A stretch of DNA of 64,000 bases from Patiriisocius marinistellae. GTDB taxonomy: Bacteria; Bacteroidota; Bacteroidia; Flavobacteriales; Flavobacteriaceae. Under the pieces are notes generated by a model. That model saw only the letters and a program-made list of their open reading frames with translations. It was not told the DNA's origin and ran no database searches. The stretch is taken from the NCBI RefSeq assembly GCF_009014635.1, contig NZ_BKCF01000001.1, forward strand, positions 124,001-188,000, written 5' to 3'. Below, one piece after another: positions 330-59,982 of this stretch; position 1 is the stretch's first letter; every line of letters starts with the position of its first letter. Made by a program: the position numbers and the translations under genes.

Positions 330-2234
330 ATGAAAGACATTATTCTATCCCTCTATTTTATTTCTACAATATGCTTTTGCTCTATGAGTTATGGGCAATC
401 AGATAGTATTTCTCATTATCAAAATCTCGCAAAACAACATAAAAAAAACATCCCATTGGCTATAGAATATTTGAATAAAGCCATGGAAATCTCAATACAA
501 AATAAGCAAGACTCTTTATACCTAAATTCAATTTCCAGAAAGAGTACGCTCTTCGGAAATTCTAAAGATTATAAAAATGCTATTGAACAAGCAACTTTCC
601 TAAATGTTGAAGCAAACCAATTAAATGATATTTTTCATATTGCTCGCTCTCATGATAAATTAGGTCGATACTATAGTAAAACAGGAGATTTAACATTAGC
701 TGTTTCAAATTATCTCCAAGCCATTAGACCATACAAAACGATCAAAGACAGCCTTAAATTAAGCTATGTTTTTGAAAAGATCGCTAACATCCAAAATGAT
801 CTAGGTGACTTTTTAGGTGCAGAAAAATCTGCTCTTGAAGGCCTTAAATATGCAAAACACAATCCGAAAGGCAATAGCGCCTGGCTTTATAATTGTTTAG
901 GAAGAGCCTCCAAGGAGCAGTTTCAATTTGATGAAGCTTTAAGTTGGTATGATCGGGGTATATCCAGTACAAACAACCAAAAAATTATTGTTTCATTGAT
1001 ACAAAATCAAGCCGTTGTATTAATGAAACAGCAAAAATATAATGAAGCCCGAAAATTATTAACAGCATTGTTACAAGAATCTGAAGTTAAAAACAGCACC
1101 TATTTAACGTCCAGAATACTCGACAACCTAGGATATGCTAACTTTAAAATAGGAGAACCTAATGCATTGACCGAATTATTAGAAGCATATGCACTACGGC
1201 AAAAAGACGATGACAAAACCGGACTCTTTGCAAGCACTATACATCTCACGGAATATTACCAAGCAAAAGACAGAGAAAAATCTTTGGAATTTGCAAAAGA
1301 CGCTTTTAACCTGTCTAAAATTATTAATAGCCCAGAAGCCCAAATTGAAGCATTATCATATCTTATAGCACTAGAAACCCCAGAAAACACAAAACTTGCT
1401 GCTCTTAGTAGTTTACATCTTAGAGACAGTATAGCTATAGCAACATCAAAACAACGCACAGAGTATTTGAAATTCAAATATAAGACAGACGAAATCTCTC
1501 TTGAAAACAGTTTGTTATTAACCGAAAAGGCACAACAAGAAACTATTATTGCTGAAGAGAAAATCAAAAAGTACATCATAGGTTTTATATCTTTTATATT
1601 ATTTATTACCATAATTGCGCTTTATTATATTTTACGAGAACGTTATAAGAAACAACGTTTAAAAGAGCGCATTGCAACACAACAACATTTTTCTAAACGA
1701 ATCCATGACGAACTTGCCAGTGACATATTTAATATAATGGCTCAAATGGAACAAGCAAATATTCCTGTTGATTATGTGGATGCTTTAGAAAACATCTATG
1801 AACGAACGAGAGACATTAATAGAGAAACTATTTCAATAATTACTAATGAAGATTTCTCAACTACTTTATCAAATCTTATAGAAGGATATTTATCTGAAAA
1901 TGAACGATTAATTTTAAATGGAATTAACGAAGTGGATTGGACTAAAATTTCAGAAGAAAACAAACAGCATCTTAAAAGAATATTGCAAGAGTTGATGACT
2001 AATATGAAAAAACACAGTAAAGCATCACTTGTTGCAATTAGCTTTAAAGAACGACAAACATCTTTACAAATTAATTATGCGGACAATGGTATTGGAGTAA
2101 TTTTAAACGACCAGAACAAAGGACATGGAATGGCGAATATGGAAAACCGTATTATTTCAATAAACGGAACCTGTATATTTGAAAGTGAACCAAATAATGG
2201 CTTTACCTGTGTATGGACTATTCCTTTAAAATAA
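330..2234 (+). CDS. TPR-containing sensor histidine kinase
   Basis: This is a membrane sensor kinase of 634 residues. Residues 1-23 form a signal peptide. Residues about 30-380 are helical TPR-type repeats expected in the periplasm. One transmembrane helix lies at about 414-434, after a short coiled coil. The cytoplasmic part has a short DHp helix with the likely phosphorylated His459 in K-R-I-H-D-E-L. The HATPase domain shows an N-box near 553-563 (QELMTNMKKHS), G1 DNGIGV at 585-590 and G2 GHGMANM at 598-604. This is the NarL/LytS-like architecture common in Bacteroidetes two-component systems. The partner response regulator starts 8 nt downstream. The signal is unknown; TPR periplasmic parts usually bind peptides or proteins. 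It carries one copy of the dispersed 10-mer at 551-560. Confidence 0.9.
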   Translation: MKDIILSLYFISTICFCSMSYGQSDSISHYQNLAKQHKKNIPLAIEYLNKAMEISIQNKQDSLYLNSISRKSTLFGNSKDYKNAIEQATFLNVEANQLNDIFHIARSHDKLGRYYSKTGDLTLAVSNYLQAIRPYKTIKDSLKLSYVFEKIANIQNDLGDFLGAEKSALEGLKYAKHNPKGNSAWLYNCLGRASKEQFQFDEALSWYDRGISSTNNQKIIVSLIQNQAVVLMKQQKYNEARKLLTALLQESEVKNSTYLTSRILDNLGYANFKIGEPNALTELLEAYALRQKDDDKTGLFASTIHLTEYYQAKDREKSLEFAKDAFNLSKIINSPEAQIEALSYLIALETPENTKLAALSSLHLRDSIAIATSKQRTEYLKFKYKTDEISLENSLLLTEKAQQETIIAEEKIKKYIIGFISFILFITIIALYYILRERYKKQRLKERIATQQHFSKRIHDELASDIFNIMAQMEQANIPVDYVDALENIYERTRDINRETISIITNEDFSTTLSNLIEGYLSENERLILNGINEVDWTKISEENKQHLKRILQELMTNMKKHSKASLVAISFKERQTSLQINYADNGIGVILNDQNKGHGMANMENRIISINGTCIFESEPNNGFTCVWTIPLK

Positions 2235-2242
2235 ATAGAAAA

Positions 2243-2908
2243 ATGTTTAAAAAAGTTTTAGTTGCTGAAGACATTGATAGTATAAATGTAGGGATTGCTA
2301 CCATGTTAAAAGATTTAAATATTAAAAATGTAGCCCATTGCCAATATTGTGATGATGCGTTAGTAAAATTTAAAAAAGCGCAATATGATAAAGAACCTTA
2401 TGAGTTGCTAATTTGTGATCTTAGCTTTAAAAAGAGCCATAGGAAAGACCAAATAACCACTGGAAAAGAGTTGATAAAAATGTTAATCGCAGAACAACCA
2501 GATTTAAAAGTTATTGTTTTTAGTGTAGATGATCATCCAAAAAGAGTTAAGGAATTGTGGGGAACTGGCTGCTTAAATGGATATGTTGATAAAAATAGAT
2601 GGGGTTTAAAAAATTTAGCAACTGGAATACAAAAAATATATAATGGCGAAACATATATGTCTCCAGCTATAGAAAGCCAATTTAAAAAAAAGAAGGTGCT
2701 TAGCGTATCCAATTATGACAACAAATTATTGTCGCTTTTAGCAGATGGTTATTCTCAAGAAGAAATTGAACAATATTTTAAAAAACATAAAATTAGTCCA
2801 AGTAGTCGTAGCAGTATAGAAAAACGCTTAAAGGATTTACGTGTTGATTTTGGCGCAAAAACAACGATCCATTTAGTAATGATGGCAAAAAATCTTAAAC
2901 TTATCTAA
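2243..2908 (+). CDS. response regulator, receiver plus LuxR-like HTH
   Basis: This is a 221-residue response regulator and the probable partner of the upstream kinase. The receiver domain (about 1-125) has the acidic pair E9-D10, phosphoacceptor D59 in L-I-C-D-L, Ser94 and Lys117, so it should be phosphorylatable. The C-terminal part (about 150-221) is a helical LuxR/GerE-like DNA-binding region, more divergent than usual. An upstream in-frame ATG at 2213 would overlap the kinase by 22 bp. I chose 2243 because the receiver beta-strand (FKKVLVAED) begins right there and it follows the kinase stop by 8 nt. A strong terminator follows at 2941, closing the lipoprotein-kinase-regulator unit. Confidence 0.88.
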   Translation: MFKKVLVAEDIDSINVGIATMLKDLNIKNVAHCQYCDDALVKFKKAQYDKEPYELLICDLSFKKSHRKDQITTGKELIKMLIAEQPDLKVIVFSVDDHPKRVKELWGTGCLNGYVDKNRWGLKNLATGIQKIYNGETYMSPAIESQFKKKKVLSVSNYDNKLLSLLADGYSQEEIEQYFKKHKISPSSRSSIEKRLKDLRVDFGAKTTIHLVMMAKNLKLI

Positions 2909-2940
2909 TTAATAAATCAACACATAAGTATAATAAAATT

Positions 2941-2976
2941 CCCACCCCTACGGAAACCCGTAAGGTGGGGTTTTTA
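2941..2976 (+). terminator. rho-independent terminator of the two-component unit
   Basis: The stem CCCACC/GGTGGG continues as TACGG/CCGTA around a small loop and is followed by a run of Ts. It lies 32 nt after the response regulator stop. Confidence 0.85.
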
Positions 2977-2984
2977 ATTTATTG

Positions 2985-4623: not shown

Positions 4624-4705
4624 CTTCGGAAATGTAACTTATCCTTTTTATTTCTGCTGAAATTTTAAACAACAAAATTATAGTTAACCCTTGAAATTTC
4701 CGAAG
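4624..4705. repeat. convergent pair of the dispersed 10-mer
   Basis: CTTCGGAAAT (4624-4633) and ATTTCCGAAG (4696-4705) face each other across 62 nt in the intergenic region between the transporter gene and rplU. Confidence 0.8.
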
Positions 4706-8130: not shown

Positions 8131-9195
8131 CTACTTAAATTCGGGAAAGCTGGAAATAAAATTTGACACTAAAACAGGTACTGCAAAGTCCTGCACTTCG
8201 GAAATTTTAATGCCATTATTGTTTAAGTTATTTGAATAACCTATCCAAAATTTAGTATACAAATGTTGATGCGATAATTTATGTACTACTTGAACGTCAT
8301 TATAAAGTACAAGTTCTGTAATACCGTGTATTTTTGATAACGACACATAATCATCAGTGTTTATTAATTGATTTTCAGAAATTTCCGAAGCACTCTCAAC
8401 AAGTGGAAATTCGTACAATTGTTGCCATATACCTTTACCAGTTCTTTGGTTTAAAATTGTCTTCTTGTCTGCGGATACAATAACTATATAATTAAAATAA
8501 CGTTTCTTAATTTTCTGCTTTTTTATTTTAACAGGAAGTTCCCCTACAGTATTAGATAAAAAAGCCACGCAATCTTTATTAAAAATACAGTGTAAACAAT
8601 CTGGGTTTTGTGGCACACAATAACGAGCACCAAACTCCATAGTTGCTTGATTAAAAGTACCTGATTGCGATATATCTAACAGTTTTTGAGCCAGTTGTTT
8701 AAATTCTTTAATTCCTGCACTACTATTAATAGGAGTACTAATTCCATAAATGCGAGAAAGAATACGATATACATTTCCATCAACCACAGCTGTAGGTAAA
8801 TCAAAACAAATAGAACCAATTGCACTTGCCGTGTAATCCCCCACTCCTTTTAAAGATAAGAGTTCTTTATAAGTTTTCGGAAACTCTCCTTTAAATTCTC
8901 CAGTTATATGTTGAGCCGTAATGTGTAAATTACGCGCCCTGGAATAATACCCTAATCCTTGCCATAATTTTAACACTTGTTCTTGCGGTGCATTTGCTAG
9001 TGCTTGAACATTAGGAAAAGCTTCAATAAATTTAAAATAATAGGGCGTTCCTTGCTCCACTCTGGTTTGTTGAAGAATAATTTCGGAAAGCCAAATTAAA
9101 TATGGCTCCCTCGTAGCTCTCCATGGGAGCTCACGTTTGTTTTCCAAGTACCATGAAATGAGATTTTTACGAAACTTTGAGGTATTTATCGCCAT
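8131..9195 (-). CDS. mutY: A/G-specific adenine glycosylase
   Basis: MutY removes adenine mispaired with 8-oxoguanine. In 354 residues I see the catalytic Glu38 (W-L-S-E-I-I-L-Q-Q-T), the helix-hairpin-helix LKGVGDYTA near 115-123 with catalytic Asp139 (V-V-D-G-N-V), and the iron-sulfur ligands C193-X6-C200-X2-C203-X5-C209. A NUDIX-like C-terminal domain (about 230-345) recognises oxoG. Length is normal. A TATTTTTG box ends 4 nt before the ATG, so the mRNA may be leaderless. Two copies of the dispersed 10-mer lie inside the gene (8196 and 8381, opposite orientations). Confidence 0.96.
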   Translation of the reverse strand: MAINTSKFRKNLISWYLENKRELPWRATREPYLIWLSEIILQQTRVEQGTPYYFKFIEAFPNVQALANAPQEQVLKLWQGLGYYSRARNLHITAQHITGEFKGEFPKTYKELLSLKGVGDYTASAIGSICFDLPTAVVDGNVYRILSRIYGISTPINSSAGIKEFKQLAQKLLDISQSGTFNQATMEFGARYCVPQNPDCLHCIFNKDCVAFLSNTVGELPVKIKKQKIKKRYFNYIVIVSADKKTILNQRTGKGIWQQLYEFPLVESASEISENQLINTDDYVSLSKIHGITELVLYNDVQVVHKLSHQHLYTKFWIGYSNNLNNNGIKISEVQDFAVPVLVSNFISSFPEFK

Positions 9196-9770: not shown

Positions 9771-9992
9771 AAAAAGTATTGGATTTTTCTTCGGAAATTT
9801 CCTGTAATTAGTTCTTTGAAAATGAAATTAAACACTGTTACTACCTGAAACAGTAATTTGATTTCGACGGGTTTTTCTGGATGTTTAAAATTTCAGAAAA
9901 CATAAAAACCCTGTGAGTATTCTATAATAAGAATGCTACAAATATTGTTTAATCCATTCTGACCACGTTATTGTGCGTCAGGACAAAAATTA
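9771..9992 (+). promoter_or_regulatory. long leader region of the RNase G/E gene
   Basis: These 222 nt without an ORF contain one dispersed 10-mer (9789-9798) and several possible stems. The clearest is CTGAC/GTCAG with inner CAC/GTG at 9959-9981, ending 11 nt before the start codon. In Enterobacteria the rne leader mediates autoregulation. Whether this leader does so is inference. Confidence 0.4.
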
Positions 9993-11579: not shown

Positions 11580-11661
11580 ATGCGCTTTTACTTCGGAAAT
11601 ATTAAATATTGAAAAAAATTAAAACCCAATAAAAGAACAAAATTTATAAATTTGATTTTCC

Positions 11662-14885: not shown

Positions 14886-16049
14886 TTAGAAATGTGGTTT
14901 TAAAATAATAATACTCACAGCATTTCCTCCAAAACCTACAGCGTTAACCATCACGGTTTTGAGTTGCTCTGGAAGATGCCTTGAATTACCGTAAAATGGA
15001 TTTTCAATAAATTTATTGTGCTCAAGCATTAACGTTGCGAGCTCTAAACTCAACATGCCAGATGTTGCAAACGTATGGCCCACCATCCATTTATTTGAAG
15101 TCAATAATGGTAATTGCCTGCCAAAAATCATATCAATAGCATTTTTCTCAGCCTTGTCTCCCTTTACGGTTCCTGGAGCATGCATAACAATTGCATCGAC
15201 CGTTTTGAGTCCAGCATTTTCTAGTGCCATATGCATTGATTTTTGAAAACAATCTGCGTTTTCACTAATAGAGCTATGGTGCTGTAAGGCCTCAGAAGCA
15301 AAACCATAACCACTAATTACTGCAAGCGCATTTTCCTTTATGCCTCGTTCTAAAACAGCAAGTGCAGACCCCTCACCAAGTATCATGGTGTTTTTTGTTT
15401 TCTGAAATCGCATCGACTCACATGCCATCTTACTTTGCGATGTTGAGTACAATCGCAACGCTTTCATTTGAGCAATGGTAAATGGTGTTAAAGCCGCCTC
15501 GCTTCCGCCCACGATGAACGCATCTGCCATATCTGCTTGCAGCCACGCAATACCATTTAATAGCGCATGCATTGCGGTTGAACAGGTAACCGATTGATCA
15601 ATTTGAACTCCCTGAATACCTAAAAATTGTGCAACCGATGACGATAAATTGCCCAACGTTGTGGTGGGAGATGTAAATACAGAGACCGTTTCGTCCAGCT
15701 TAAATTGGTCATAATATTTTTCAAAAAGTCCCGTAGCACCTCTTGATGAGCCAATGTTAACTCCAGTTCTTTTACTTCGGAAATTTGCTGCGCCGTTTAA
15801 AGTTTCCGAGGCCATTAAAGCTAACAATACCGTTCTATCTAAATGTTTAAAAGCCGGATTTTCATCCTGCATTTTGGATAATGCTTGTTGCATTTCCGAA
15901 GAAATTTTTGAAACTTTAATAGTATGTTCTCCAATTAGCATTTCAGAAAAAAGAGCACTTTTAAAAAGGTAATTTTGCCACACTTCCTCGCGGGTTTGAC
16001 CTAATGCCGAAATGGAAGATAATGCTGTAATTGAAATGGGATATCGCAA
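14886..16049 (-). CDS. beta-ketoacyl synthase (FabF-like) in the biotin cluster
   Basis: The 387-residue thiolase-fold protein has an intact Cys-His-His set: Cys156 in D-Q-S-V-T-C-S-T-A-M, His290 in V-M-H-A-P-G-T with the following G-D, and K320/His325 in K-W-M-V-G-H-T-F-A-T-S-G. It is therefore a condensing enzyme, not a decarboxylase-type KSQ. It lies directly upstream of bioB with a promoter of its own. No bioC, bioH or bioG is in the cluster, so a role in making the pimeloyl chain is a reasonable inference but unproven. The start is TTG at 16049; no in-frame ATG lies upstream. Two dispersed 10-mers lie inside (15775, 15892). Confidence 0.88.
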   Translation of the reverse strand: MRYPISITALSSISALGQTREEVWQNYLFKSALFSEMLIGEHTIKVSKISSEMQQALSKMQDENPAFKHLDRTVLLALMASETLNGAANFRSKRTGVNIGSSRGATGLFEKYYDQFKLDETVSVFTSPTTTLGNLSSSVAQFLGIQGVQIDQSVTCSTAMHALLNGIAWLQADMADAFIVGGSEAALTPFTIAQMKALRLYSTSQSKMACESMRFQKTKNTMILGEGSALAVLERGIKENALAVISGYGFASEALQHHSSISENADCFQKSMHMALENAGLKTVDAIVMHAPGTVKGDKAEKNAIDMIFGRQLPLLTSNKWMVGHTFATSGMLSLELATLMLEHNKFIENPFYGNSRHLPEQLKTVMVNAVGFGGNAVSIIILKPHF

Positions 16050-18506: not shown

Positions 18507-19685
18507 TTAATTGATTTGATTAGTAATTATGGTAATTAACTTAACTATCTGCTCTTTAGTATTATAACTATGTAAACAAATACGTAAACGTTCCTTCTCT
18601 CTAGGCACGGTGGGTGATAGTATTGCTTTCACATCAAAACCCTGTTTTTTAATAGCTTCGGAAATGTGTTTTACATGACTATTTCCAGACACAATGCAAC
18701 TATGAATAGCCGAATTACTTGGAATAAAATGCTGTTGTAATGAATTACTAATTATTTCATTTTTTAATATTGCAATATTACTTTTTAATGTTTGCCTTTT
18801 TTCCGAAGAAATATTTAGTTCATTATACGCTGCTTGTATTGTTGCAAGACTGTGCGGTGGTAATGCTGTTGTGTAAATAAAGCTTCGAGCAAAATTAATA
18901 AGATAGTTTTTCAAATCATTGCTACAAATAATTGCAGCGCCGTGACAACCCAAACCTTTACCGAAAGTAATGATACGTGCGAATATTTTATTTTCTAATT
19001 CTAATTCTTGCACTAATCCTTCTCCCTTGTTTCCGAAAACACCAAGCGCGTGAGCTTCATCAACAACTAAATGCACGTTGTAGCTATTGCACAAATGGGA
19101 AAGTGCTTTTAAATCTGGAGTATCACCGTCCATACTAAAAACGCTTTCGGTGATTATGTAAATTTCGTTTTTTACTTGGAGATTTCGATTTCGATCAATT
19201 AGGCTTTTTGAGTTGTTACTAAATTGATGGAGTTTTTTTTCTAAATCCTCAACATTGTTGTGAGTAAACTTATACCCTTTTGCATTACTCATCTTAATGC
19301 CGTCTCTAATAGAGGCGTGGCATAATTCATCATATAAAACAATATCTCCTCTTTGTGGAACGCTGCTAAAGAAACCAATATTAGCATCGTACCCACTATT
19401 AAAAATTAGAGCCGCTTCACTGTTGTGGAATGTGGCTATTAGGTCTTCGGTGCTTTTAAAAAGTGAATGGTTTCCTGATAAAAGTCTTGATCCCGTTGCG
19501 CCATTGTGCTCAAGGTTTTGTTGTTTTAAAATTTCAGAAGTTATTTTAAAAATCTTTTTTGAGACGCTAAACCCTAAATAGTCATTTGATGAGAAGTCTA
19601 TAAGATTATTAGGCGTACCCAACTTGCGCAATGAGTTGCTTTCTTGGCGTTTTGCTATTTTTATTTGAAGTTTTTTAGGTAGCAT
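18507..19685 (-). CDS. bioF: 8-amino-7-oxononanoate synthase
   Basis: The 392-residue PLP enzyme of the alpha-oxoamine synthase family condenses pimeloyl-CoA/ACP with alanine. Motifs: S-S-N-D-Y-L-G near 32, G-A-T-G-S-R-L-L-S-G near 63, D-E-L-C-H-A-S near 118, V-D-E-A-H-A-L-G near 208 and the PLP Lys in T-F-G-K-G-L-G near 245. The related KBL acts on glycine and CoA; the bioD-bioA context decides for BioF. It is the first gene of the unit. Its promoter box ends 4 nt before the ATG. It holds one exact dispersed 10-mer (18656) and a one-mismatch partner at 18799-18808. Confidence 0.95.
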   Translation of the reverse strand: MLPKKLQIKIAKRQESNSLRKLGTPNNLIDFSSNDYLGFSVSKKIFKITSEILKQQNLEHNGATGSRLLSGNHSLFKSTEDLIATFHNSEAALIFNSGYDANIGFFSSVPQRGDIVLYDELCHASIRDGIKMSNAKGYKFTHNNVEDLEKKLHQFSNNSKSLIDRNRNLQVKNEIYIITESVFSMDGDTPDLKALSHLCNSYNVHLVVDEAHALGVFGNKGEGLVQELELENKIFARIITFGKGLGCHGAAIICSNDLKNYLINFARSFIYTTALPPHSLATIQAAYNELNISSEKRQTLKSNIAILKNEIISNSLQQHFIPSNSAIHSCIVSGNSHVKHISEAIKKQGFDVKAILSPTVPREKERLRICLHSYNTKEQIVKLITIITNQIN

Positions 19686-21722: not shown

Positions 21723-22069
21723 TATATAGGTAAGTAGTTAAGCGAATAAAAATAATCAATTTTTTAAGTTTCACAATATCTAGTTTAATATGTAGTAAAC
21801 TTTAAGTTATTTTAGAATTTGACGTATTTTTTGAAAGTTGCTTTAAAATTGATGGATAGTTACTTAATAGTATATTTTCGAATAGATATACCTTAGTACT
21901 ATCAAGATAACATCTTTTTTTTGTCACCATTATCTCGCAAACGGTTGCATGATTTATATCTTAAATGTTCGTAAATAATGCTAATCAAACTAAAATTTCC
22001 GAAGCATTATAAATAGCTTTATTAAGTTGAGACGTTATATTATTAACAAGTAATATAGCATATTTACTT
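21723..22069. other. 347-nt gap between GAF kinase and MscS gene
   Basis: No ORF of merit. It holds one dispersed 10-mer (21995-22004) whose flanks AATGCT (21978-21983) and AGCATT (22003-22008) can pair as a loose stem. No T-run follows and I see no TAnnTTTG box. Confidence 0.4.
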
Positions 22070-27110: not shown

Positions 27111-27833
27111 TTAGTCGTTTTTAAGAATATAGTTTTTTAAAATATTGTAATAATCTAAGGCTTCATCAAGCACCGGCAGTAATCTTTCTGGTATTTTTTG
27201 TTTAGTGGATTTTTGAACTGAAAATTCTTGAGAGTTATGAACGTTTTTATACCAGTGTTTTGCCCAAACACCGTCTTCGGGTATGCCTCCTTTTTTCCAC
27301 TTCAGCATCTTTTCAGAAAACGGAATCTTCAACTTTTCGCATATCTTTTGAAGATATACCTTTGGGCTTTTAATAAGCTCGTCACTATCTATAATGAGTG
27401 GCACATTTCCGCTTTGCGATAAAAAAGTAAAAAGTTGGCTGGCTTTTTTTATCCCTATGTCATCAATTGTTGGATTTTCAATCACTTTTGAAAATGAAGT
27501 TAGCAGTTTTTGAGGATGCCTAATAAGAATGATGTTTTCCCAATTTAAAATAAATTGTGGTTTATTACTTAAATAATGATGCGCCATTCCTTTAATAAAC
27601 ACATCTTTTTTTAATGCTTGTTTCTCTATCTGTGCAATTATTTTTTCTTCGGAAATTTCCATGGATTTAAAAATCTCATTCTCGGAAGGATGCTTAACTC
27701 GTTTATCTTTATTATGCAAATAATAGGCGTAAAAAGGCTCGTCTAAAACTTTTATATTCTTTCGTTGTGCAAAAGAATACATTAATGCAGTGGATAAGTT
27801 GCGAGGTCCCGCGATGAGATTGAAGATTTTCAC
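27111..27833 (-). CDS. sulfotransferase-like P-loop protein
   Basis: A 240-residue protein starting with a strand and the 5'-phosphosulfate-type loop A-G-P-R-N-L-S-T-A-L-M (residues 8-18). D-E-P-F-Y-A-Y-Y-L near 36 and I-L-I-R-H-P-Q-K-L near 101 (the R-H/D-P motif of the 3'-phosphate-binding region) follow. This is the sulfotransferase-like P-loop fold. Substrate and even the PAPS dependence are unproven. It is the first gene of a two-gene unit with the class IV aminotransferase, which suggests modification of an amino-acid-derived compound. No sulfate-activation genes lie nearby. It holds one dispersed 10-mer (27647). Confidence 0.8.
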   Translation of the reverse strand: MKIFNLIAGPRNLSTALMYSFAQRKNIKVLDEPFYAYYLHNKDKRVKHPSENEIFKSMEISEEKIIAQIEKQALKKDVFIKGMAHHYLSNKPQFILNWENIILIRHPQKLLTSFSKVIENPTIDDIGIKKASQLFTFLSQSGNVPLIIDSDELIKSPKVYLQKICEKLKIPFSEKMLKWKKGGIPEDGVWAKHWYKNVHNSQEFSVQKSTKQKIPERLLPVLDEALDYYNILKNYILKND

Positions 27834-33260: not shown

Positions 33261-33333
33261 CTTCGGAAATGTTAAATACTAGGAGGCTTTTTATGTTTCA
33301 TTTTTATTTATAATCTACGACTCATTTCCGAAG
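33261..33333. repeat. convergent pair of the dispersed 10-mer between panC and panD
   Basis: CTTCGGAAAT (33261-33270) and ATTTCCGAAG (33324-33333) face each other across 53 nt. Confidence 0.8.
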
Positions 33334-37527: not shown

Positions 37528-40500
37528 TTACTCTTTGACAATGCTTTTAGTCATAGACCCGTTATCTGTGATAATTGTTATAAAATATCCCGCACTATTT
37601 AATACCGAAATATCTAGAGAGACTAATTTATGTTGAACATTCAATTTCTCTGATATTAATTTTCTCCCTTGTAAGTCATAAATATGAACTTCGGAAATTA
37701 AACTTCCATTTACACTCAAAATATTGATACTATCTTCTGCTGGGTTGGGATAGACTACAAAATTATTAATTGAAACATTTTCAATATTTAAAACTTCTTC
37801 TTCAATAAACTTTAGGATAAAACGATTATTAAATGTCCCCATTGAACTATTGAATGTATAACTTCCATCTATAAGGTTAGTCATAATTCCTGTTACAGTA
37901 TCTACTAAATATACTTGCTCATTTTCAATTAGATCACCCTCTAAGTCAGCTATTGAAATTGTATAGCTCGCATTATCCTGAGCTAGCTGTGTTGAAAAAC
38001 CAACTGGTATTGCCATCGTGTTTTCAAAAGAACCAAGTGATTGTATTCCTAGCTCAAAACTTCCATCTTGTAAATGAGAATATATACCTAAGAAGGTTGC
38101 TAATCGACGACTATCATATCCCTTATCTAACATTTCCGAAGCATTTTCAGAAAAACCTATCAATGTGGAGCCATTAATTTCCCACTGTTCGTTAGTGATA
38201 TTTAACCAAATTTTATTTGTATTGTTTGATGTGCGTAACGTTGTATTTCCATTTAATCTGCGCATTGTATTATTAAATGTTACTGTTCCTGCAGCATTAG
38301 CTTTTACTGCAAACCCTTGTGCCGTTGCAATAAGCCCATTTGGTTTTGTATTATTTTCTGATGTGTCACTAGCAGCTTTTACACCCCCCATTAAATTATA
38401 CATTGAAATATCTTCCATTGAAAAATTTGCACTGTTGTAGCCTGGTAAAGTTCCATTTGGCTCGGTTAGATGCTCCCAGAAATATACCTCATCAATTTCA
38501 GGGTTTACAGTAATGAAGTCATCAGCTAATATTGCTGAAGCATATGGATTTGCAATCATATTTGGACTACTGTTTTTATTTGTATGAAAAAGCAGCGGAG
38601 TAGTTATAACACCATTATTTAGCGTTCCGTTATTATAAGTAAGGTCAAATGCACCACCCGTTGAAAGGTCAGGCTGTGGTTGTACAAAATAACCCTCGGC
38701 AGGATTTAAAACTCCTGTTTGTGTTGACCAGTTATCCCCATCATCATCAGCAAAATTTTCGGCCATTGGAAATGCTGCAGCAACCGTAGGATCTGGTATA
38801 AAATTATTTGTATTATGTTTTAAAACTCTAAATGCGTCTACAAAAACTCCATCTCGAGACTCATTACTCATAGGGCTTCCCATAATCATAAAATCACGAG
38901 GGTCAATGTTAGGAGTTGTCACATTCACATTTATAGTTCCATTATTTGTAGTCACTGCTGTGTCATCCCTCTGTACAATGCTTCCTTGATGTTCCACATT
39001 TAATGTTCCATTAACTAAAATATTGCTTGTAACTTCAAGATAATTTCCTGCCGTAATGGTTAAAGTTCTACCAGTTTCTATAGACACACTACATGCTTCT
39101 AGATTTCCATAAGGCATCATCGTTGCAGGATCTATTGTTGTCGCTGTATTATAATTAGCTCTTATAATAGCATTCATTGTATTATCTGGAATACCATTAT
39201 TCCACTCACCACTAATAAATTCGGTCGTTTCTACACAGGGTGGTAACGGTGCTGGTATAACACTTACATCAAAAGTATATTCTCCAGCAAAAATTTCTCT
39301 TGTTGAAGCTCTCATTTTTAGAATAGTTCCAGCTTCTACGTTGAATAAAGAGCCATCATTAAAAAAACAGCTTATTTGATTTCCCTCACAGCTATCAAAA
39401 AATGCGATAGATATGGAGTTATCTACATTATTGACTTGAATCTCACCATCAACTGGCATTGTCATTTCATACCACACGTCTAGATAATTTATTGTATTAT
39501 TATTCTCACAAGTAATCTCACTGTCATTTGAAGCCCCTCTTAATTCAGTAGTGATAAATACGGGATTTAATGTGCTCAAATTTATAGTTGTTGCATTTGA
39601 GCAGTTATCATTAGGTTCCTGCTCGAAAGCCTGAATTGAAAAACTTGAGGCATTTGCAAAAAGTTCTCGTTCAGAATATCGAAGAGTATATGTTGTGTTT
39701 GCAGTAAGACCACTAATAACAGAATCATCTACATCGCAAGATAATTCTGTACCTCCACAGCTATCATAAATTGTAAAATACTCCGAATTTGGAACATCGG
39801 TAATTACAATATTTCCAGTAACAGGCATTATAAATTCATACCAAACATCTAGAAATTCTATATTAGCATTCGTTTCACATTCTGTAATTAAAAATGGATC
39901 TTCCTCACTTGCTGCTCTAAAATCTGTACTATATGTACTTATACCAGTAGTTGTCACAGTTATAGTTTCTCTGTTTGAACAGTCATCATTTGTAATAGAC
40001 TCAAAAGCTTGGATTGAAAAATCTGAGACATTTGCAAAAAGTTCCCGCTCAGAATATCGAAGTACATAGTTAGTTCCTGCTGTCAGCCCGTCAATGATTG
40101 AATCATCAACTTGGCATGAAAGCTCTTCCCCTCCGCAGCCATCATTCATAGAATTAACACTAAACAAAGTGATAAACTCAGTATTTGAAATACCTGAAAT
40201 TACAACATTACCAGTAACAGGCATCGTAAACTCATACCATACATCAAAAAATTCTATCCCAGCATTTGTTTCACAACCTGTAACAAATAAAGGGTCATCC
40301 TCACTTGCTGCTCTAAAATCTGTAGTATAAGTATTCATACCTGTAGTTGTCACAGCTATTGTTTCTCTATTTGCACAGTCATCATTTGCAACGGTCTCAA
40401 AAGCCTGGATTGAAAAATTTGAGGCATTTGCAAAAAGTTCCCGCTCAGAATATCGGAGTATATAGTTGGTTCCTGCTGTCAAACCCCCAATAACAGAATC

Positions 40501-41367: not shown

Positions 41368-41449
41368 CTTCGGAAATGCAACAAACATTTCACTTTAAAC
41401 CATTATTTAAAGAGATAATAGCGGGATAATTTTCTTAAAATTTCCGAAG
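41368..41449. repeat. convergent pair of the dispersed 10-mer upstream of radA
   Basis: CTTCGGAAAT (41368-41377) and ATTTCCGAAG (41440-41449) face each other across 62 nt, between the T9SS gene start and radA. Confidence 0.8.
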
Positions 41450-41494
41450 AACATCTCCTTTTACTACACCTAAAATAGTACTACTTTTACACCT

Positions 41495-42871
41495 ATGGCA
41501 AAAACCAAAACTACCTTTTTCTGTCAAAACTGCGGCAGCCAATATTCAAAATGGCAAGGGCAATGTACTTCCTGTAAAGAGTGGAACACTATTGCCGAAG
41601 AAGTTATCCAGAAAGCCGAAAAGGTTACATGGGAAGTGGGAGAAGCAAAGAAGGCAGTTTCAAGTAGAAGCCGTGTAGCAAAACCCCTTAAAATTTCAGA
41701 AATAAACTCAAGTGCCGAGGCAAGGATGAACACCCAAAACGGAGAACTTAACAGAGTTTTAGGTGGTGGATTAGTTCCCGGAAGTTTAACCCTCTTAGGT
41801 GGAGAACCCGGAATTGGGAAAAGTACTTTAATGCTCCAAATTGCATTGCAGCTGCCATATAAAACGTTGTATGTCTCAGGTGAAGAAAGCGCTACACAAA
41901 TTAAAATGCGCGCAGAAAGAATCCATCCAGATTCTGAAAACTGCTATATTTTAACCGAAACAAAAACACAAAACATCTTCCGAAATATTGCTGAAATGGA
42001 GCCCGATATAGTCGTTATTGATTCCATACAAACACTACATACAGATTATATTGAAAGTAGTGCTGGTAGTATATCTCAAATTAGAGAAACCACAACCGAG
42101 CTTATCAAATTTGCGAAGGAAACCGCTACGCCCGTTATTTTAATTGGTCACATTACAAAAGATGGTAACATCGCAGGCCCTAAGATTCTGGAACATATGG
42201 TGGACACCGTACTCCAGTTTGAAGGCGACAGAAATCATATTTATAGAATTCTTAGAGCAAATAAAAACCGTTTTGGAAGCACTAATGAACTAGGTATTTA
42301 CGAAATGCAAGGCAGCGGACTTAGAGAAGTTGCAAACCCTTCGGAAATTTTAATCTCCAAAAATGAAGAAGATTTAAGTGGTACTGCTATTGCTTCAACA
42401 TTAGAAGGAATGCGGCCATTAATGATTGAAATTCAAGCATTAGTTTCTACTGCAGTTTATGGTACACCTCAACGCAGCGCCACAGGTTATAATGCAAAAC
42501 GCCTTAATATGATTCTCGCCGTTCTTGAGAAAAGAGCCGGTTTTAAACTTGGTGCTAAAGATGTTTTCTTAAATGTAACGGGTGGGATTTCCGTAGATGA
42601 CCCAGCAATAGATCTTGCGGTAGTTGCAGCTGTTTTATCCAGCAACGTAGATATAGCAATTGACAAACGAATGTGTTTTGCTGCCGAAATAGGCCTGGCT
42701 GGAGAAGTCCGCCCTGTAACAAGAGTGGACCAACGAATCCTTGAAGCCGAAAAGTTAGGCTTTGAAACCATCATCATCTCAAAATATTGCAAACTCCCTA
42801 AAGAAACCTATGGCATTCAAATTGTAAAAGTGGCAAAGGTTCACGATGTGGTAAAGCATTTGTTTGCGTAA
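41495..42871 (+). CDS. radA: DNA repair protein RadA (Sms)
   Basis: The 458-residue helicase/recombination protein has a zinc finger (C10, C13, C24, C27), a RecA-type ATPase with Walker A G-E-P-G-I-G-K-S-T near 103-111, the RadA-specific K-N-R-F-G-S near 255, and a Lon-protease-like C-terminal domain (from about 290) without a catalytic Ser-Lys role. It helps branch migration in recombination and, in some bacteria, transformation. It ends 2 nt before the convergent AraC gene stop. It holds one dispersed 10-mer (42339). Confidence 0.97.
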   Translation: MAKTKTTFFCQNCGSQYSKWQGQCTSCKEWNTIAEEVIQKAEKVTWEVGEAKKAVSSRSRVAKPLKISEINSSAEARMNTQNGELNRVLGGGLVPGSLTLLGGEPGIGKSTLMLQIALQLPYKTLYVSGEESATQIKMRAERIHPDSENCYILTETKTQNIFRNIAEMEPDIVVIDSIQTLHTDYIESSAGSISQIRETTTELIKFAKETATPVILIGHITKDGNIAGPKILEHMVDTVLQFEGDRNHIYRILRANKNRFGSTNELGIYEMQGSGLREVANPSEILISKNEEDLSGTAIASTLEGMRPLMIEIQALVSTAVYGTPQRSATGYNAKRLNMILAVLEKRAGFKLGAKDVFLNVTGGISVDDPAIDLAVVAAVLSSNVDIAIDKRMCFAAEIGLAGEVRPVTRVDQRILEAEKLGFETIIISKYCKLPKETYGIQIVKVAKVHDVVKHLFA

Positions 42872-42873
42872 AA

Positions 42874-43749
42874 CTATTTTAAAATCTGTGTGATAGAGTT
42901 ACGATATTCCGATGGTTTATAGCCCGTTCTTTCTTTAAAAAGTTTATTAAAGTGAGAAAAATTATTGAATCCGCTTTCAAACGCTATATCAGTGATGCTT
43001 GAATTTTCTTGAGACAATAATTTACAAGCGTGAACAACCCTAAACTCATTTACAAACTGTGTAAAAGTTTTTCCGGATTGCTTTTTAAAATACCTACAAT
43101 AGGCAGGGATTGTCATATTCACTTCTTCGGAAATTTCTTCAAGAGTAATGGTTCTTTTAAAGTTATTTTGAACAAAATTATATATTTGGTTTATACGCTG
43201 GTTATCTTGTTGTTTTACCTCTAGTATAAATTCCTTAGCATTTAATAACTCATATTCATCGGCATCTGCCATCATTTTTAAGATAGCAAGAAGTTCTATC
43301 AATCGTTCAAAACTATCTAATTTCTCTAACTTTTCCATTCGCTCGCCTATCAATTTTTTAGCATTTCCGAAGAAAGAGATTCCCATTTTGGCTCTTTCAA
43401 ACAATTGCTTTACCCGTTCCATTTCAGGAATGTCAAAAAACTCATTACCGAGAAAATCTTCTTTCATTTGTACCACAACTTCAGAGACATTACGTGTCAT
43501 TCTATCTATAAATCCAGAATGTGGCAATCCAGATCCTATTAATAGAAGTTTTCCTCCTTGATAACAGGAAAGATGGTTACCTACATGGCTTTTCCCGCTT
43601 CCGTCTTTTACATAAACCATTTCTATTTCAGGATGAAAATGATAAAATGGAATACTGTTTTTCCAAGCTTCATCAAAAACTCTCAGCGTAAAAGAGCTTC
43701 CAAAAGAAGGATCTATTCTCTTAAAAGATGCTTTGTTATTTGTATTCAT
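42874..43749 (-). CDS. AraC-family transcriptional regulator
   Basis: The 291-residue protein has an N-terminal cupin-like sensor (about 20-100, F-H-P-E-I-E-M-V-Y-V) and a C-terminal double helix-turn-helix (about 188-288): I-T-L-E-E-I-S-E-E-V-N-M, then S-I-T-D-I-A-F-E-S-G-F and R-T-G-Y-K-P-S-E-Y-R. The sensor's H-P-E is typical of sugar-responsive members; ligand unknown. Target genes may be its neighbours, but no evidence supports that. TAATTTTG at 43773-43780 may be its -7 box. Two dispersed 10-mers lie inside (43125, 43363). Confidence 0.92.
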   Translation of the reverse strand: MNTNNKASFKRIDPSFGSSFTLRVFDEAWKNSIPFYHFHPEIEMVYVKDGSGKSHVGNHLSCYQGGKLLLIGSGLPHSGFIDRMTRNVSEVVVQMKEDFLGNEFFDIPEMERVKQLFERAKMGISFFGNAKKLIGERMEKLEKLDSFERLIELLAILKMMADADEYELLNAKEFILEVKQQDNQRINQIYNFVQNNFKRTITLEEISEEVNMTIPAYCRYFKKQSGKTFTQFVNEFRVVHACKLLSQENSSITDIAFESGFNNFSHFNKLFKERTGYKPSEYRNSITQILK

Positions 43750-44658: not shown

Positions 44659-44764
44659 CTATTAATTATAAATTTCAATAATAGTCTAGATTTGGATGCT
44701 ATTCTATTATGCTAACGTACATTTTCATCATAAATTTGGTTCAGTTTTTGAGTAAATAGCATTG

Positions 44765-45898
44765 ATGAAAAAATTTGGCATCTTTTTAATATTCCTGGCG
44801 CTCATTGCATCATTAATTTATTTTCTTTATCCAAACGCCACAGATATCATTACAAAACCCAGCGCAAGAGAAGCCTACGAGCGCGAGTTTCAAAACACCG
44901 ACCAATTATTTAACAAGTGGAAACTACTTTCTGAAATTTCAAAAAAAGATAGTTTACAAGTTGAAATCCCATTTGCAGAAAGCGGCCTTTTTTCTTCGGA
45001 AATTTTAAAAATTTTCACTTTTGAAGTTTCATTAAAAAGAGGCGAAATATTTCACGCTGAAGTCAAAACAGAAATTGACAGTATTCAAGTTTTTATGGAA
45101 TTATTTGAGCAGAAAAATGATTCGGTCTCAACTTTCATTTCCATTCAAAGTAATCGTCCTAATAAACTTAATATTTCCGAAGAAATTAAAGAAACTGGCA
45201 TTTACAAAATACACATTCAGCCAGAGATTTTTGCAGATTCGCCTTTTCAGCTAAAAATTTATACACAACCACAATACGCATTTCCAGTTGTTGGTAAAGA
45301 TAACCGGGCGATACAGAGTTTTTGGGGAGCAGATCGCGAGGGCGGGAAACGAAGCCATAAAGGCAATGATATTTTTGCAGCGAGAGGCACTCCTGTGGTT
45401 GCTATTACTGATGGAATAGTTTCTTCAACCGGCAATCGAGGATTAGGTGGAAAACAAGTGTGGTTACGAGATGGGATTTTTGGACAGTCGCTTTATTACG
45501 CCCATCTGGATAGTATTATTGCTCGGCAGGGACAGCGTGTGAAAATTGGTGATACACTAGGTTTGGTAGGAAATACTGGTAATGCACGCACAACTCCGCC
45601 ACACCTCCATTTTGGAATTTACACAAGCGGTGGCGCTATAGATCCCTATCCATTTATTAAAATCTCTGAAATTCCTAAAGACGAAAAACCACTTTCATCA
45701 AGTTACGGCGTAATTAAACCTCAAACTTCTAAATTGCTTCAAAACCCAAAGAGAAAATCGGCCGTGTTACAAAATTTAAAACGTACCGACACTATTTCCA
45801 TCTTTGGTAAAAGTGGTTCTTATTATCATATTACTTCTGGAGATACATTGCGAGGTTTTATCCTTGAAAGAGACGTTAAGGAACTTTTTTTAAATTAA
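44765..45898 (+). CDS. M23-family metallopeptidase with C-terminal SH3-like domain
   Basis: The protein has 377 residues from the ATG at 44765 (a TTG just upstream would add one codon). A membrane anchor or signal (about 3-20) is followed by a beta region and the peptidase domain (about 180-290) with zinc ligands in S-H-K-G-N-D (H-x3-D) and P-H-L-H-F-G. A C-terminal SH3-like part (about 305-377) probably binds the cell wall. It should cut peptidoglycan cross-links. TAAATTTG at 44731-44738 is a plausible -7 box. Two dispersed 10-mers (44994, 45173) lie in its 5' half. Confidence 0.93.
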   Translation: MKKFGIFLIFLALIASLIYFLYPNATDIITKPSAREAYEREFQNTDQLFNKWKLLSEISKKDSLQVEIPFAESGLFSSEILKIFTFEVSLKRGEIFHAEVKTEIDSIQVFMELFEQKNDSVSTFISIQSNRPNKLNISEEIKETGIYKIHIQPEIFADSPFQLKIYTQPQYAFPVVGKDNRAIQSFWGADREGGKRSHKGNDIFAARGTPVVAITDGIVSSTGNRGLGGKQVWLRDGIFGQSLYYAHLDSIIARQGQRVKIGDTLGLVGNTGNARTTPPHLHFGIYTSGGAIDPYPFIKISEIPKDEKPLSSSYGVIKPQTSKLLQNPKRKSAVLQNLKRTDTISIFGKSGSYYHITSGDTLRGFILERDVKELFLN

Positions 45899-47406: not shown

Positions 47407-48990
47407 ATGAATACAATAGATTACGATTACATAATAATAGGAAGCGGCTTCGGCGGTTCAGTAAGTGCGTTGCGGTTATCAGAGAAAGGATACAAAGTAT
47501 TAGTAATTGAAAAAGGCAAATGGTACAAATCAAAAGATTTTCCTAAATCTAATTGGAATATTAAAAAATGGTTATGGATGCCCAGTTTACGGTTTTTTGG
47601 GATTATGAAGTTGTCCATTTTTAGACATATTGCCATAATCTCTGGAACGGGTGTGGGCGGTGGTTCTTTAGTCTACGCAAACACGTTGCCTACCCCTAAA
47701 ACAGCCTTCTTTAATTCAGGAAGTTGGAAAGACTTAAATGATTGGGAAACAGATTTAAAACCCTATTACAAGGAAGCACTGAGAATGCTGGGAGCTACAC
47801 AAAACCCAAAAATATTTGATGGCGATAAAGGACTGAAAAAGGTTGCCGAAGATTTAAATATCCTTAAAAAATTTGACACCACTCGTGTAGGTGTTTACTT
47901 CGGAAAAGCTGCTGAAACAGTAAAAGACCCCTATTTTAATGGCGAAGGGCCAGATAGAACTGGCTGTACTTTTTGTGGTGCGTGTATGACAGGTTGCAGG
48001 TATAATGCAAAAAACACATTAGACAAAAATTACCTCTATCTAGCACAAAAACAAGGAGCAGAAATCTTAGCAGAACAAGAAGTGTATAATGTACAACCCT
48101 TCGGAAATATGAATGGGTCTGAAGGTTATGAAGTTTCATTAAAAAGAAGTACTCGCATTTTTGGGAAGCATCAAAAAATCACCGCGAAAGGTGTCATATT
48201 TTCGGGAGGCGTTCTAGGGACTGTAAAATTGTTATTAAAACTGAAGCAGAAATCGTTGCCTAATATTTCAGAAAAAATTGGGGAAGATATAAGGAGTAAT
48301 AACGAAACTTTGATAAGTGTTTCGGGATTAGAAAAAGATAAAAATTTCTCAAAAGGAATAGCCATAGGTAGCATTCTCGACACAGATGAAAATAGTCACT
48401 TAGAAATTTGTAGATACGGCGAAGGTTCTGATGCTTGGAAACTCGCGCACTTGCCTTACGTTACTGGATCTAATGTGTTTTCCCGTTTATTTAAAACATT
48501 CATAAAACTTTTAAAAAACCCTGTTGACTATTTTAAAATTTATTTTGTCAACGGTTGGGCAAAAAACACAGTAGTATTGCTATTTATGCAAACGCTTGAT
48601 AGTACTTTAAAATTTAAGAGGAATATTTTCGGAAAAATGACATCAACTGTTAGCATGGGTAATGCACCCACACCGTTTATCCCAGAATCTATTCAATTAG
48701 TAAAGGCGTATCAAAAAGCAATTAATGGAGTAAGTACTTCATTTGCACTAGAAACCTTGGCAGGAATACCCTCAACAGCCCACATTCTTGGCGGTGCCGT
48801 AATGGGAAAAGATAAAACTACGGGCGTGATTGATAAAGACAATAAAATGTTTGGTTATAAAAACATGTATGTTATTGATGGTGCGATGATTTCGGCAAAT
48901 CCTGGGGTAAATCCTTCACTAACTATTACTGCCATTGCAGAAAGAGCGTTGGATAAATTTCCGAAGAAAAATAATACGCTTATTTCATAA
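47407..48990 (+). CDS. GMC-type oxidoreductase with CxxCxxCxxxC cluster
   Basis: The 527-residue flavoprotein has the FAD-binding G-S-G-F-G-G (12-17), the G-T-G-V-G-G-G-S GMC loop near 80-87 and a C-terminal A-N-P-G-V-N-P-S-L-T motif. Residues 187-197 hold C187-x2-C190-x2-C193-x3-C197 (R-T-G-C-T-F-C-G-A-C), which looks like a [4Fe-4S] site; such a site is unusual in plain cholesterol oxidases but known in related dehydrogenases. It may pass electrons to a quinone or ferredoxin rather than oxygen. It lies 47 bp after the acyl-CoA dehydrogenase and 7 bp before the lipase gene. Substrate unknown, perhaps a sterol or fatty alcohol. Confidence 0.9.
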   Translation: MNTIDYDYIIIGSGFGGSVSALRLSEKGYKVLVIEKGKWYKSKDFPKSNWNIKKWLWMPSLRFFGIMKLSIFRHIAIISGTGVGGGSLVYANTLPTPKTAFFNSGSWKDLNDWETDLKPYYKEALRMLGATQNPKIFDGDKGLKKVAEDLNILKKFDTTRVGVYFGKAAETVKDPYFNGEGPDRTGCTFCGACMTGCRYNAKNTLDKNYLYLAQKQGAEILAEQEVYNVQPFGNMNGSEGYEVSLKRSTRIFGKHQKITAKGVIFSGGVLGTVKLLLKLKQKSLPNISEKIGEDIRSNNETLISVSGLEKDKNFSKGIAIGSILDTDENSHLEICRYGEGSDAWKLAHLPYVTGSNVFSRLFKTFIKLLKNPVDYFKIYFVNGWAKNTVVLLFMQTLDSTLKFKRNIFGKMTSTVSMGNAPTPFIPESIQLVKAYQKAINGVSTSFALETLAGIPSTAHILGGAVMGKDKTTGVIDKDNKMFGYKNMYVIDGAMISANPGVNPSLTITAIAERALDKFPKKNNTLIS

Positions 48991-53313: not shown

Positions 53314-53324
53314 TCTATTTTTCT

Positions 53325-53485
53325 TTCTTCGGAAACGTGACCTCCATTAAACATAATGCGAAATTAAATAACAATGTATCTTTACCACAGTCGTTAAATG
53401 AAAGGTTTTCACAAAACAATCAACAAATTATAAAATTCTGCGTTATTCAAACAACGTATTGTCCCACCCCTTAAAATTTCCGAAG
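53325..53485. repeat. convergent pair of the dispersed motif, one copy inexact
   Basis: CTTCGGAAAC (53325-53334, nine of ten) and ATTTCCGAAG (53476-53485) face each other in the gap upstream of the outer-membrane gene. Confidence 0.6.
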
Positions 53486-59308: not shown

Positions 59309-59549
59309 ATTAAGTAATTTTAAGTTTTAATATTTTTATTTAATTTATAAAATTACGACGATTTAGAGAAAGAACAAGGAATAAAAACTAGTATTTTCTC
59401 ACTATAATCTCCTATTATATACTCGAACAGTATTAAAGATGCACTCTTATGCTTAATTATTTAAATCCAAAATAAATCAAAATACGTAATTAATAAAAGA
59501 TACAATATTTGTAATTTTCAAAAATATATAACCACAAAACTTTTAAATC
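59309..59549. other. divergent intergenic region
   Basis: It must carry promoters for the T9SS gene and the small lipoprotein. AATATTTG at 59503-59510 is one base from the TAnnTTTG box for the plus-strand gene. No strong hairpin. Confidence 0.35.
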
Positions 59550-59915
59550 ATGATAATTCGCACTTTAATATTAACACTTTGTATATCAATTACAGCATGT
59601 TGTACTTCAAAAAAATCAACAACAGATGCCAATATGGACAGCACTGAAAAATCTGAAATTATGATGACAGACGCAAAGATGATGGAAGCTGGTTTTAAAC
59701 AAGGCGTAATTGTAGCAAGTAATATTGAAGGAGATTGTCCTTTTACAATAAAAATAGATGGAGACCAACCCTATTTTTTAGATCCAATTAACCTTGATGA
59801 TATGTATAAAAAAGATGGAATGAAAATTTGGTTTACTTTTAATGGTTTAAGAATGATGAACCGTTGCGAAAAAGCAAATCCTGTGAATGTTAATGAAATT
59901 CAAGTTAGAAAATAA
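59550..59915 (+). CDS. hypothetical small lipoprotein
   Basis: The 121-residue protein has a lipoprotein signal ending at Cys17 or Cys18 (I-T-A-C-C-T-S-K-K). The mature part holds G-V-I-V-A-S-N-I-E-G-D-C-P-F-T-I-K and W-F-T-F-N-G-L-R, suggesting a small beta-fold with two conserved Cys (near 73 and 107). Flavobacterial proteins of this shape exist but I know no function. It has its own region between divergent genes and ends near a hairpin shared with glyS. Confidence 0.78.
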   Translation: MIIRTLILTLCISITACCTSKKSTTDANMDSTEKSEIMMTDAKMMEAGFKQGVIVASNIEGDCPFTIKIDGDQPYFLDPINLDDMYKKDGMKIWFTFNGLRMMNRCEKANPVNVNEIQVRK

Positions 59916-59936
59916 GCTAGCTACTTAATAAAAGTG

Positions 59937-59982
59937 AAATTTCCGAAGCGAAACATTGTGTTTTACTTCGGAAATTTTAATT
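59937..59982. terminator. hairpin terminator built from two copies of the dispersed 10-mer
   Basis: ATTTCCGAAG (59939-59948) and CTTCGGAAAT (59966-59975) with extra A/T pairs form a stem with a 17-nt loop between convergent genes. The flanking A/T runs let it act on both strands. This is the only pair in the divergent order. Confidence 0.8.

Follow-up and report, generated by a model that had tools for sequence, protein, structure and literature searches.

A direction-sensitive 10-nucleotide genome word in Patiriisocius marinistellae and scattered Flavobacteriaceae: a putative DNA-uptake-like signal with convergent close copies

Uptake sequences are, to our knowledge and in the papers cited below, known from two proteobacterial families only, and the cause of their accumulation has long been debated. 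Here we analyze the asymmetric 10-mer CTTCGGAAAT, which recurs over a 64,000-nucleotide stretch of the Patiriisocius marinistellae genome (contig NZ_BKCF01000001.1, positions 124,001 to 188,000, or C1:124001-188000; hereafter the window). Inverted pairs of the DNA uptake sequence (DUS) of Neisseriaceae have been linked to terminators, and a dyad arrangement in Simonsiella is said to be a possible sign of a dimer-based mechanism (PMC3630211). In Riemerella anatipestifer, transformation needs ComEC, DprA, ComF and RecA together with four proteins without relatives in the well-known machines, and the ComF homolog is essential (PMC8459023). This machine includes an adjacent pair of a DUF5689 protein (predicted fimbrium) and a carboxypeptidase-regulatory outer-membrane protein, with a helix-hairpin-helix protein and DUF1343 as further members, and none of the genes that the screen showed to be essential is a known type IV pilus component in the available text (PMC8459023). 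In R. columbina, the organism's own DNA competed better than foreign DNA for uptake; when k-mers were ranked by raw count in this species, R. anatipestifer and Flavobacterium johnsoniae, A-rich words alone made up the top three per length, and weak type IV pilus homologs were noted in F. johnsoniae (PMC7965970).

The over-representation of CTTCGGAAAT is real across the genome and in several genera. The 28 exact copies that a first-pass annotation had claimed for the window were all found (16 on the forward and 12 on the reverse strand, positions 551 to 59975), vs a mean of 0.16 and a maximum of 1 in 100 dinucleotide shuffles. The whole genome (G000; 3,338,299 bases in a 30-contig draft) holds 833 copies, 428 on the forward and 405 on the reverse strand, vs 16 for the control, the same word read backwards. 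The word is thus far above expectation genome-wide, and it is not limited to the window, being present throughout the genome and in relatives. Across 464 kb of DNA that spans the window, the word outscores every other 10-mer against a third-order Markov model (138 vs 0.93 expected), and it scores highest in samples of six motif-bearing genomes, including the genus mates G001, G002 and G009 and 200-kb samples of two other genera (17 vs 0.95 in G293, 18 vs 0.68 in G276). The window, which was chosen for motif richness, exceeds the genome mean (28 copies vs 16 predicted, Poisson 0.004), and the densest 64 kb within a 1.264-Mb sample, taken in 4 kb steps, holds 29. Among the one-base neighbors of the word, the commonest are CTTCTGAAAT (29), CT[A/G]CGGAAAT (15, 11), CTTCGGCAAT (11) and CTTCGGAAA[A/C] (14, 8), and the remaining ones occur 0 to 6 times each.

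Close copies follow a convergent orientation rule. It was first seen in the first 464 kb, where all 22 adjacent pairs less than 250 bp apart have opposite orientation and 19 of them are convergent, and was then tested on fresh DNA (C1:868-1268 kb, 91 copies). Pairs less than 1 kb apart numbered 18 convergent, 3 divergent and 7 same-strand there, vs 7.1, 7.1 and 13.9 in label shuffles, none of 5000 of which reached 18 convergent pairs. Over the 1.264-Mb sample (38% of the genome, 328 copies), the convergent/divergent/same-strand counts are 64/12/16 vs 23/22.8/46.2 shuffled. The convergent excess is kept at 250-1000 bp (26/6/11); at 1-2 kb divergent pairs are in excess (26 vs 16.1), and from 2 to 5 kb counts and shuffles agree. 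The rule holds within one gene (22/3/4), within one intergenic space (20/6/3), between exact and selected one-mismatch copies less than 250 bp apart (23/2/9) and in G001 (9/3/3 vs 3.8/3.8/7.3, P 0.005), while G293 and G276, with 17 and 18 copies in their samples, have too few pairs for a judgment (3/0/1 and 0/0/1). The controls were 283 non-palindromic 8-mers, each present in 250-420 copies in the sample and forming at least 40 pairs there. Of these only two, both parts of the motif, show the rule (0.65-0.66 of pairs in the favored opposite class); none of the 281 unrelated 8-mers does, the best reaching 0.37. Intragenic position bias was ruled out as the cause of the rule, as it is not significant (Mann-Whitney 0.14).

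At the shortest distances the geometry is fixed. When gaps from 10 to 20 are allowed, the genus yields 23 convergent pairs, and the gap is 14-17 in every one (13 in G000, 5 in G001, 3 in G002 and 1 each in G005 and G009, one of them with identical sequence in G001 and G009), vs two divergent pairs in that range, both in G000. Many of these rigid pairs look like CTTCGGAAATTTTAA or a close variant, followed by a few bases and then the complement. The pair rule is a quantitative property of the genome that is new here and is not described for uptake sequences in the available text of the relevant papers; its reach and the fixed spacing suggest a dimeric or directional reader.

The copies sit in coding as well as in intergenic DNA. 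By a simple open reading frame (ORF) caller, used without curated annotation, 198 of the 328 sampled copies lie in genes (0.17/kb), 128 between genes (1.05/kb) and 2 straddle a boundary, so that the intergenic density is about six times the coding density. In the first 464 kb both classes far exceed expectation (78 vs 0.70 in genes, 60 vs 0.33 between genes). The coding copies are read as ISE (65), FGN (56), SEI (47), FPK (18) or in the other two registers (12), the first three holding 168 of 198. Codon or peptide preference, which the first-pass annotation had already held unable to explain the copies, was ruled out on these grounds: the copies use all six frame and strand registers, and their density is highest between genes. 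Coding and intergenic copies alike have a T-rich 5' flank at -6 to -2, which is also present in the G293 and G276 samples, and a 3' flank of the form nTnA; beyond about 6 bp on either side little sequence is shared.

Orthologous sites were compared by blastn alignment, at 73-75% identity and in small numbers. The site is exact in 13 of 59 alignments to motif-bearing mates (8/38 in G001, 2/14 in G002, 3/7 in G009), vs 4.9-6.5% of flanking 10-mers that are exact, and 48 of the 59 are gap-free over the site. Among the non-exact states in G001, 9 of 30 are CTTCTGAAAT, TTTCTGAAAT or CTTCAGAAAT. In three motif-less mates the exact site was found in none of 27 alignments, 16 of which are gap-free. 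At the radA copy, the exact word is also present in G001, G002, G009 and Ulvibacter antarcticus, and G007, G010 and G003 have gap-free substitutions. Because the orthologous alignments differ mostly by gap-free base changes, the comparison suggests that copies are gained and lost through substitution in place, not as inserted units.

The distribution among relatives is patchy. We surveyed 397 Flavobacteriaceae genomes from 237 genera, an even draw from a larger group, and tallied the counts by eye. A count of 100 or more is reached in 20 of the genomes and 12 of the genera, with similar numbers on the two strands; an intermediate tail includes genomes with 60-99 copies (e.g. G049, G068, G073, G083, G123, G165, G310, G343 and G401), and in most other genomes of the family the copies are near or below control. 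A 21-kb locus of Psychroserpens burtonensis (L026) has 5 copies. Within the genus, 5 of 11 genomes are rich, with 833 (G000), 605 (G001), 345 (G002), 474 and 239 copies, the last in a genome of 59% completeness. The other six, of small genome size (1.7-2.1 Mb; G003, G004, G006, G007, G008 and G010), have 12, 21, 20, 34, 6 and 23 copies vs controls of 14, 9, 15, 18, 13 and 18. Motif presence in the genus seems to follow a species split, because RadA identity to the window is 95-97% in three motif-bearing mates vs 88-92% over the best segments in the small-genome mates; G005 gave no match. Among the matches listed, U. antarcticus is the closest named species by RadA (89% identity), which puts the host in the Flavobacteriaceae.

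The genome encodes much of the equipment described in Riemerella. ComEC is found at C1:987884 (E 4.6e-60), DprA at C1:373085-374191 (TIGR00732, over cut-off), and an adjacent pair of a DUF5689 protein with choice-of-anchor J and a CarbopepD_reg_2 protein at C1:235784-240096. The window itself carries, as context, a ComF-type phosphoribosyltransferase gene (62675..63355, forward strand), whose product matches TIGR00201 with E 2.9e-24 and 86 bits, below the strict cut-off of 233.55. In other genera we surveyed 23 motif-bearing genomes (17 with at least 100 copies, 6 with 66-92). ComEC is present in 22 of them (in 21 of 21 well-completed ones, the miss being 68% complete) and DUF5689 in 21, the misses being the 68%-complete genome and G310. 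In the genus, ComEC and DUF5689 are each present in 10 of 11 genomes, ComEC being missed in G005 and DUF5689 in G008 (in G005 the DUF5689 match is only below cut-off). ComEC and DUF5689 do not explain motif presence, because motif-less mates have both; the two genes are permissive, not discriminating. The DUF5689 protein as an obvious receptor was ruled out, since its similarity does not track the motif, and so was a type IV pilus as the reader, since no T2SSE (pilus ATPase) match was found in the genome (4 of 28 first-look candidates scored). Among the 20 genomes with at least 100 copies, T2SSE gave three strong matches (G263, G276, G293) and one borderline match (G252). As a separate observation, the DUF5689 protein of G009 and G001 has the domain twice (L171, L172; frames of 745 and 742 aa), and a single domain is seen at that place in the genome under study, in G002 and in the small-genome mates.

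We consider it the best explanation, with a probability of roughly 0.6, that CTTCGGAAAT is the core of a putative DNA-uptake-like signal, accumulated by molecular drive and read by a Riemerella-type competence machine. The word would be bound by some component of the Flavobacteriaceae competence machine at the surface or in the periplasm, which would raise the rate at which DNA carrying the word is taken up and recombined. Any new copy would spread by biased gene conversion until protein function sets a limit; the intergenic density and the tolerated registers (ISE, SEI, FGN) would follow because protein function limits the spread. If the word is read directionally, a bound copy would bring in mainly one flank, and a second copy inside that flank would gain nothing. 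Facing copies would not interfere, and convergent pairs would be left. This directional model, our own proposal, predicts convergent pairs, but it does not say why the shortfall against expectation is greater for same-strand pairs than for divergent ones. What stands plainly is a taxon-specific, direction-sensitive genome word, with copies seemingly made by substitution. The first-pass annotation had suggested an uptake, chromosome-organizing or repair-recognition sequence: the uptake-like part, as a candidate role, is the best supported of these (patchy taxa, both strands, apparent substitution origin, T-rich flank, competence genes), and roles polar with respect to the replichores are unlikely, the strands showing no flip. 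In its fuller form, that of a putative first uptake sequence outside Neisseriaceae and Pasteurellaceae, in Bacteroidota, with a machine free of a pilus ATPase and a directional reading that leaves facing pairs, the proposal is tentative and falls a little short of even odds. To that form also belongs the view that the word is common to scattered genera of one family and was lost or never gained in the small-genome relatives.

Several points weigh against an uptake-like signal. Neisseria and Pasteurellaceae take up DNA by type IV pilus-type machines, and no T2SSE match was found in the genome under study, in a search in which 4 of 28 first-look candidates were scored. ComEC is present in all six and DUF5689 in five of the six motif-less small-genome mates, and G310 (82 copies, 99% complete) is without a DUF5689 match. 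The DUF5689 protein of P. marinistellae is 56-57.5% identical to those of motif-less mates vs 37-49% to those of motif-bearing ones. Some motif-less mates lie above control (G007, 34 vs 18; G004, 21 vs 9). In 864 kb the spacing of the copies shows no clear excess of evenness over chance (P 0.09), and a longest gap of 23.5 kb is ordinary (random mean 22.1 kb). Uptake in Haemophilus influenzae is independent of signal orientation (PMC1939737), and the pair rule is therefore not explained by the classical model; the genomic pair pattern points to direction dependence. The gaps gave no sign that the word is kept out of foreign DNA beyond one polysaccharide-like locus. This is a 12 kb motif-free segment of 29% GC (G000:C1:401337-413361) with what seem to be surface polysaccharide genes, perhaps imported.

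The main rival to the uptake-like reading is a dimeric or bridging reader: an intracellular DNA-organizing or repair protein that would engage two sites facing each other, by looping, bridging or translocation, with the copies kept by selection. The reach of the convergent rule to about 1 kb (64/12/16) and the fixed spacing (gap 14-17 in all 23 convergent pairs vs two divergent pairs) would fit such a protein, but patchy presence among close relatives and the separate loss of one pair member (the copy at 15892 in G009, one case) are odd for a housekeeping site, and there is no strand bias by replichore. We regard this explanation as unlikely, though deserving of weight.

Template switching at quasi-palindromes could make inverted pairs on top of a driven word. 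It would yield inverted and not same-strand neighbors, and by our own argument AT-rich seeds on the loop side would favor convergent ones, but the 281 unrelated 8-mers of similar number are without skew and the rule extends to pairs 250-1000 bp apart (26/6/11), which makes it improbable.

Two further explanations have very little probability left. A polar chromosome signal of the Chi or FtsK-orienting (KOPS) kind would fit the asymmetry of the word and its length and density. The strand-symmetry check called for by the first-pass annotation was run at the minimum of the cumulative GC skew in one 1.264 Mb stretch, and the strand ratios on its two sides are 75:63 and 103:87, with no flip; with this, the 428:405 ratio genome-wide and control-level counts in most relatives, the polar signal was ruled out. 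A mobile repeat, either a repetitive extragenic palindromic element (REP) or its inverted doublet (REPIN) moved by a REP-associated tyrosine transposase (RAYT), or a miniature inverted-repeat transposable element, would account for the inverted doublets. At E 0.001 a Y1_Tnp match is present in G000, G005 and G009 and absent in the six motif-less mates, but none was found in G001 and G002 despite 605 and 345 copies. With 198 of 328 copies in genes, little shared sequence beyond about 6 bp and differences by substitution, REPIN/RAYT was ruled out.

A by-product of transcription terminators is the least probable explanation: a few copies fit the inverted terminator pairs that the first-pass annotation named as a feature of known uptake sequences, such as the divergent pair 59939/59966 between converging genes with a possible hairpin followed by AAATTTT, but most do not, and terminators were ruled out as the main role because 198 of 328 copies are genic and the rigid convergent pairs are not ordinary terminators, given their gene context (the 9 sampled in G000 divide into 4 flanked by diverging genes, 4 flanked by tandem genes and 1 inside a gene, with no case of converging flanks) and their A/T-rich 3' sides without a T-run.

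Related words are also over-represented. TTCTGAAAT or TTTC[A/T]GAAA occurs 98 times vs 10 in 464 kb of G000:C1, and in the motif-less mates G003 (8 vs 1.1) and G007 (9 vs 0.6; loci L123-L126 and L117-L118). TTCTGAAAT pairs convergently with the main motif, not with itself, and the rule is absent among TTCTGAAAT copies themselves (2/7/6); the word may represent a weak site, an earlier dialect or a forerunner. Aequorivita loci (L010-L013, L015) have 39 copies of TTTCAGAAA vs 6.4. A locus of U. antarcticus is rich in CTTCGGAAG (8 vs 0.5 in a 21 kb sample) and the Aureisphaera/Altibacter group in CTTCAGAAA (15 vs 1.2 in 59 kb; loci for the two words L009, L014, L016 and L017); with samples of this size, both are possible dialects. 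The top words of pooled radA loci of Flavobacterium, Winogradskyella and Algibacter were set aside, as they probably reflect shared orthologous DNA.

In the window, 16 of the 28 copies lie in genes and 12 between genes by the simple gene call, and the 12 adjacent pairs less than 1 kb apart comprise 9 convergent, 2 divergent and 1 same-strand. Convergent pairs are given here with the forward-strand copy first and the reverse-strand copy second. Between genes these are 4624..4633 and 4696..4705 (72 bp), 33261..33270 and 33324..33333 (63 bp), and 41368..41377, upstream of radA, with 41440..41449 (72 bp). Within genes they are 8196..8205 and 8381..8390 (185 bp) in a gene that we take to be mutY-like (8131-9195), 15775..15784 and 15892..15901 (117 bp) in a ketosynthase-like gene, 37689..37698 and 38132..38141 (443 bp) in the gene at 37528-41250, 43125..43134 and 43363..43372 (238 bp) in an AraC-like gene, 44994..45003 and 45173..45182 (179 bp) in the gene at 44762-45898, and 48099..48108 and 48957..48966 (858 bp) in a GMC oxidoreductase gene. 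In the ketosynthase-like gene the first copy is exact in G009 and reads CTTCGGAAA- in G002, and the second reads CTTCGGAAAC in G002 and CAGAAGAAAG in G009. Further forward-strand copies lie at 551..560 in a histidine kinase gene (330-2234, named after the first-pass annotation), 9789..9798 (intergenic), 11591..11600 (intergenic, upstream of a presumably recX-like gene, 11662-12141), 18656..18665 (in a presumably bioF-like gene; exact in G009 and G002), 27647..27656 (in the gene at 27111-27833) and 42339..42348 (in radA). Reverse-strand copies at 21995..22004 and 53476..53485 are intergenic. Between converging genes, 59939..59948 (reverse strand) and 59966..59975 (forward strand) form a divergent pair 27 bp apart, where the letters suggest a terminator-like hairpin. 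The peptides previously read from these copies agree with the ORFs (FGN in the kinase at 551, FPK in the GMC oxidoreductase at 48957, SEI in radA at 42339, ISE in the AraC regulator at 43125 and NFRS in the ketosynthase at 15775).

Presumed genes of genome maintenance (mutY-, recX-, radA- and xth-like) carry or adjoin copies in the regions 8131-9195, 11591-12141, 41368-42871 and 52549-53485, which recalls the bias of DUS and the uptake signal sequence (USS) of Pasteurellaceae to such genes cited in PMC2346458. A ribosomal protein L21-like gene (3774-4472) has a long Ala/Lys-rich tail and a helix-hairpin-helix-like end segment.

Our literature search, with subscription papers and preprints outside its scope, found, among the papers listed, no uptake sequence in Bacteroidota and no genomic report of the word; among the matches listed for the 10-mer or its complement, none is by title on a bacterial genomic repeat. 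If the uptake-like reading is true, the word would be a third independent case of an uptake sequence, in another phylum and with another machine, on which the idea of molecular drive becomes testable. It would also open a way to the receptor that binds DNA in flavobacterial competence and offer a practical tool for transforming marine flavobacteria. The pair rule constrains the reader protein, which would have to be sensitive to direction or work as a pair.

Of the known systems, the neisserial DUS, read by ComP, is alike in length, in its hundreds or more of copies, in genic and intergenic placement, in inverted pairs and in dialects (PMC3630211), and unlike in that it belongs to another phylum and is unrelated in sequence, while a pilus ATPase match is absent here and the convergent rule reaches about 1 kb. 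The Pasteurellaceae USS shares an asymmetric core with an AT-rich flank and a higher density between genes, and many of its copies are in ORFs as well (65% in H. influenzae, PMC1939737, vs 198/328 here). It differs in that orientation is without effect on uptake in H. influenzae (PMC1939737) and in that the Pasteurellaceae reverse-complement uptake sequence lies at 5' ends and the uptake sequence mostly at 3' ends of genes (PMC2346458), whereas such a position bias is not significant here (Mann-Whitney 0.14). The Riemerella machinery is alike in ComEC, DprA, a ComF-type protein and the DUF5689/carboxypeptidase-regulatory pair; unlike here, CTTCGGAAAT is not among the top three k-mers per length reported for Riemerella and F. 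johnsoniae in the available text (PMC7965970). REP/REPIN elements with RAYT likewise occur as singles and inverted doublets, unlike the short flanks, mostly genic copies and missing Y1_Tnp match in G001 and G002 seen here. HIP1 of cyanobacteria is also a short word repeated on a massive scale, with a role that is uncertain (PMC4390886); it is palindromic and linked to methyltransferases, whereas CTTCGGAAAT is asymmetric and, by the palindrome test, not palindromic.

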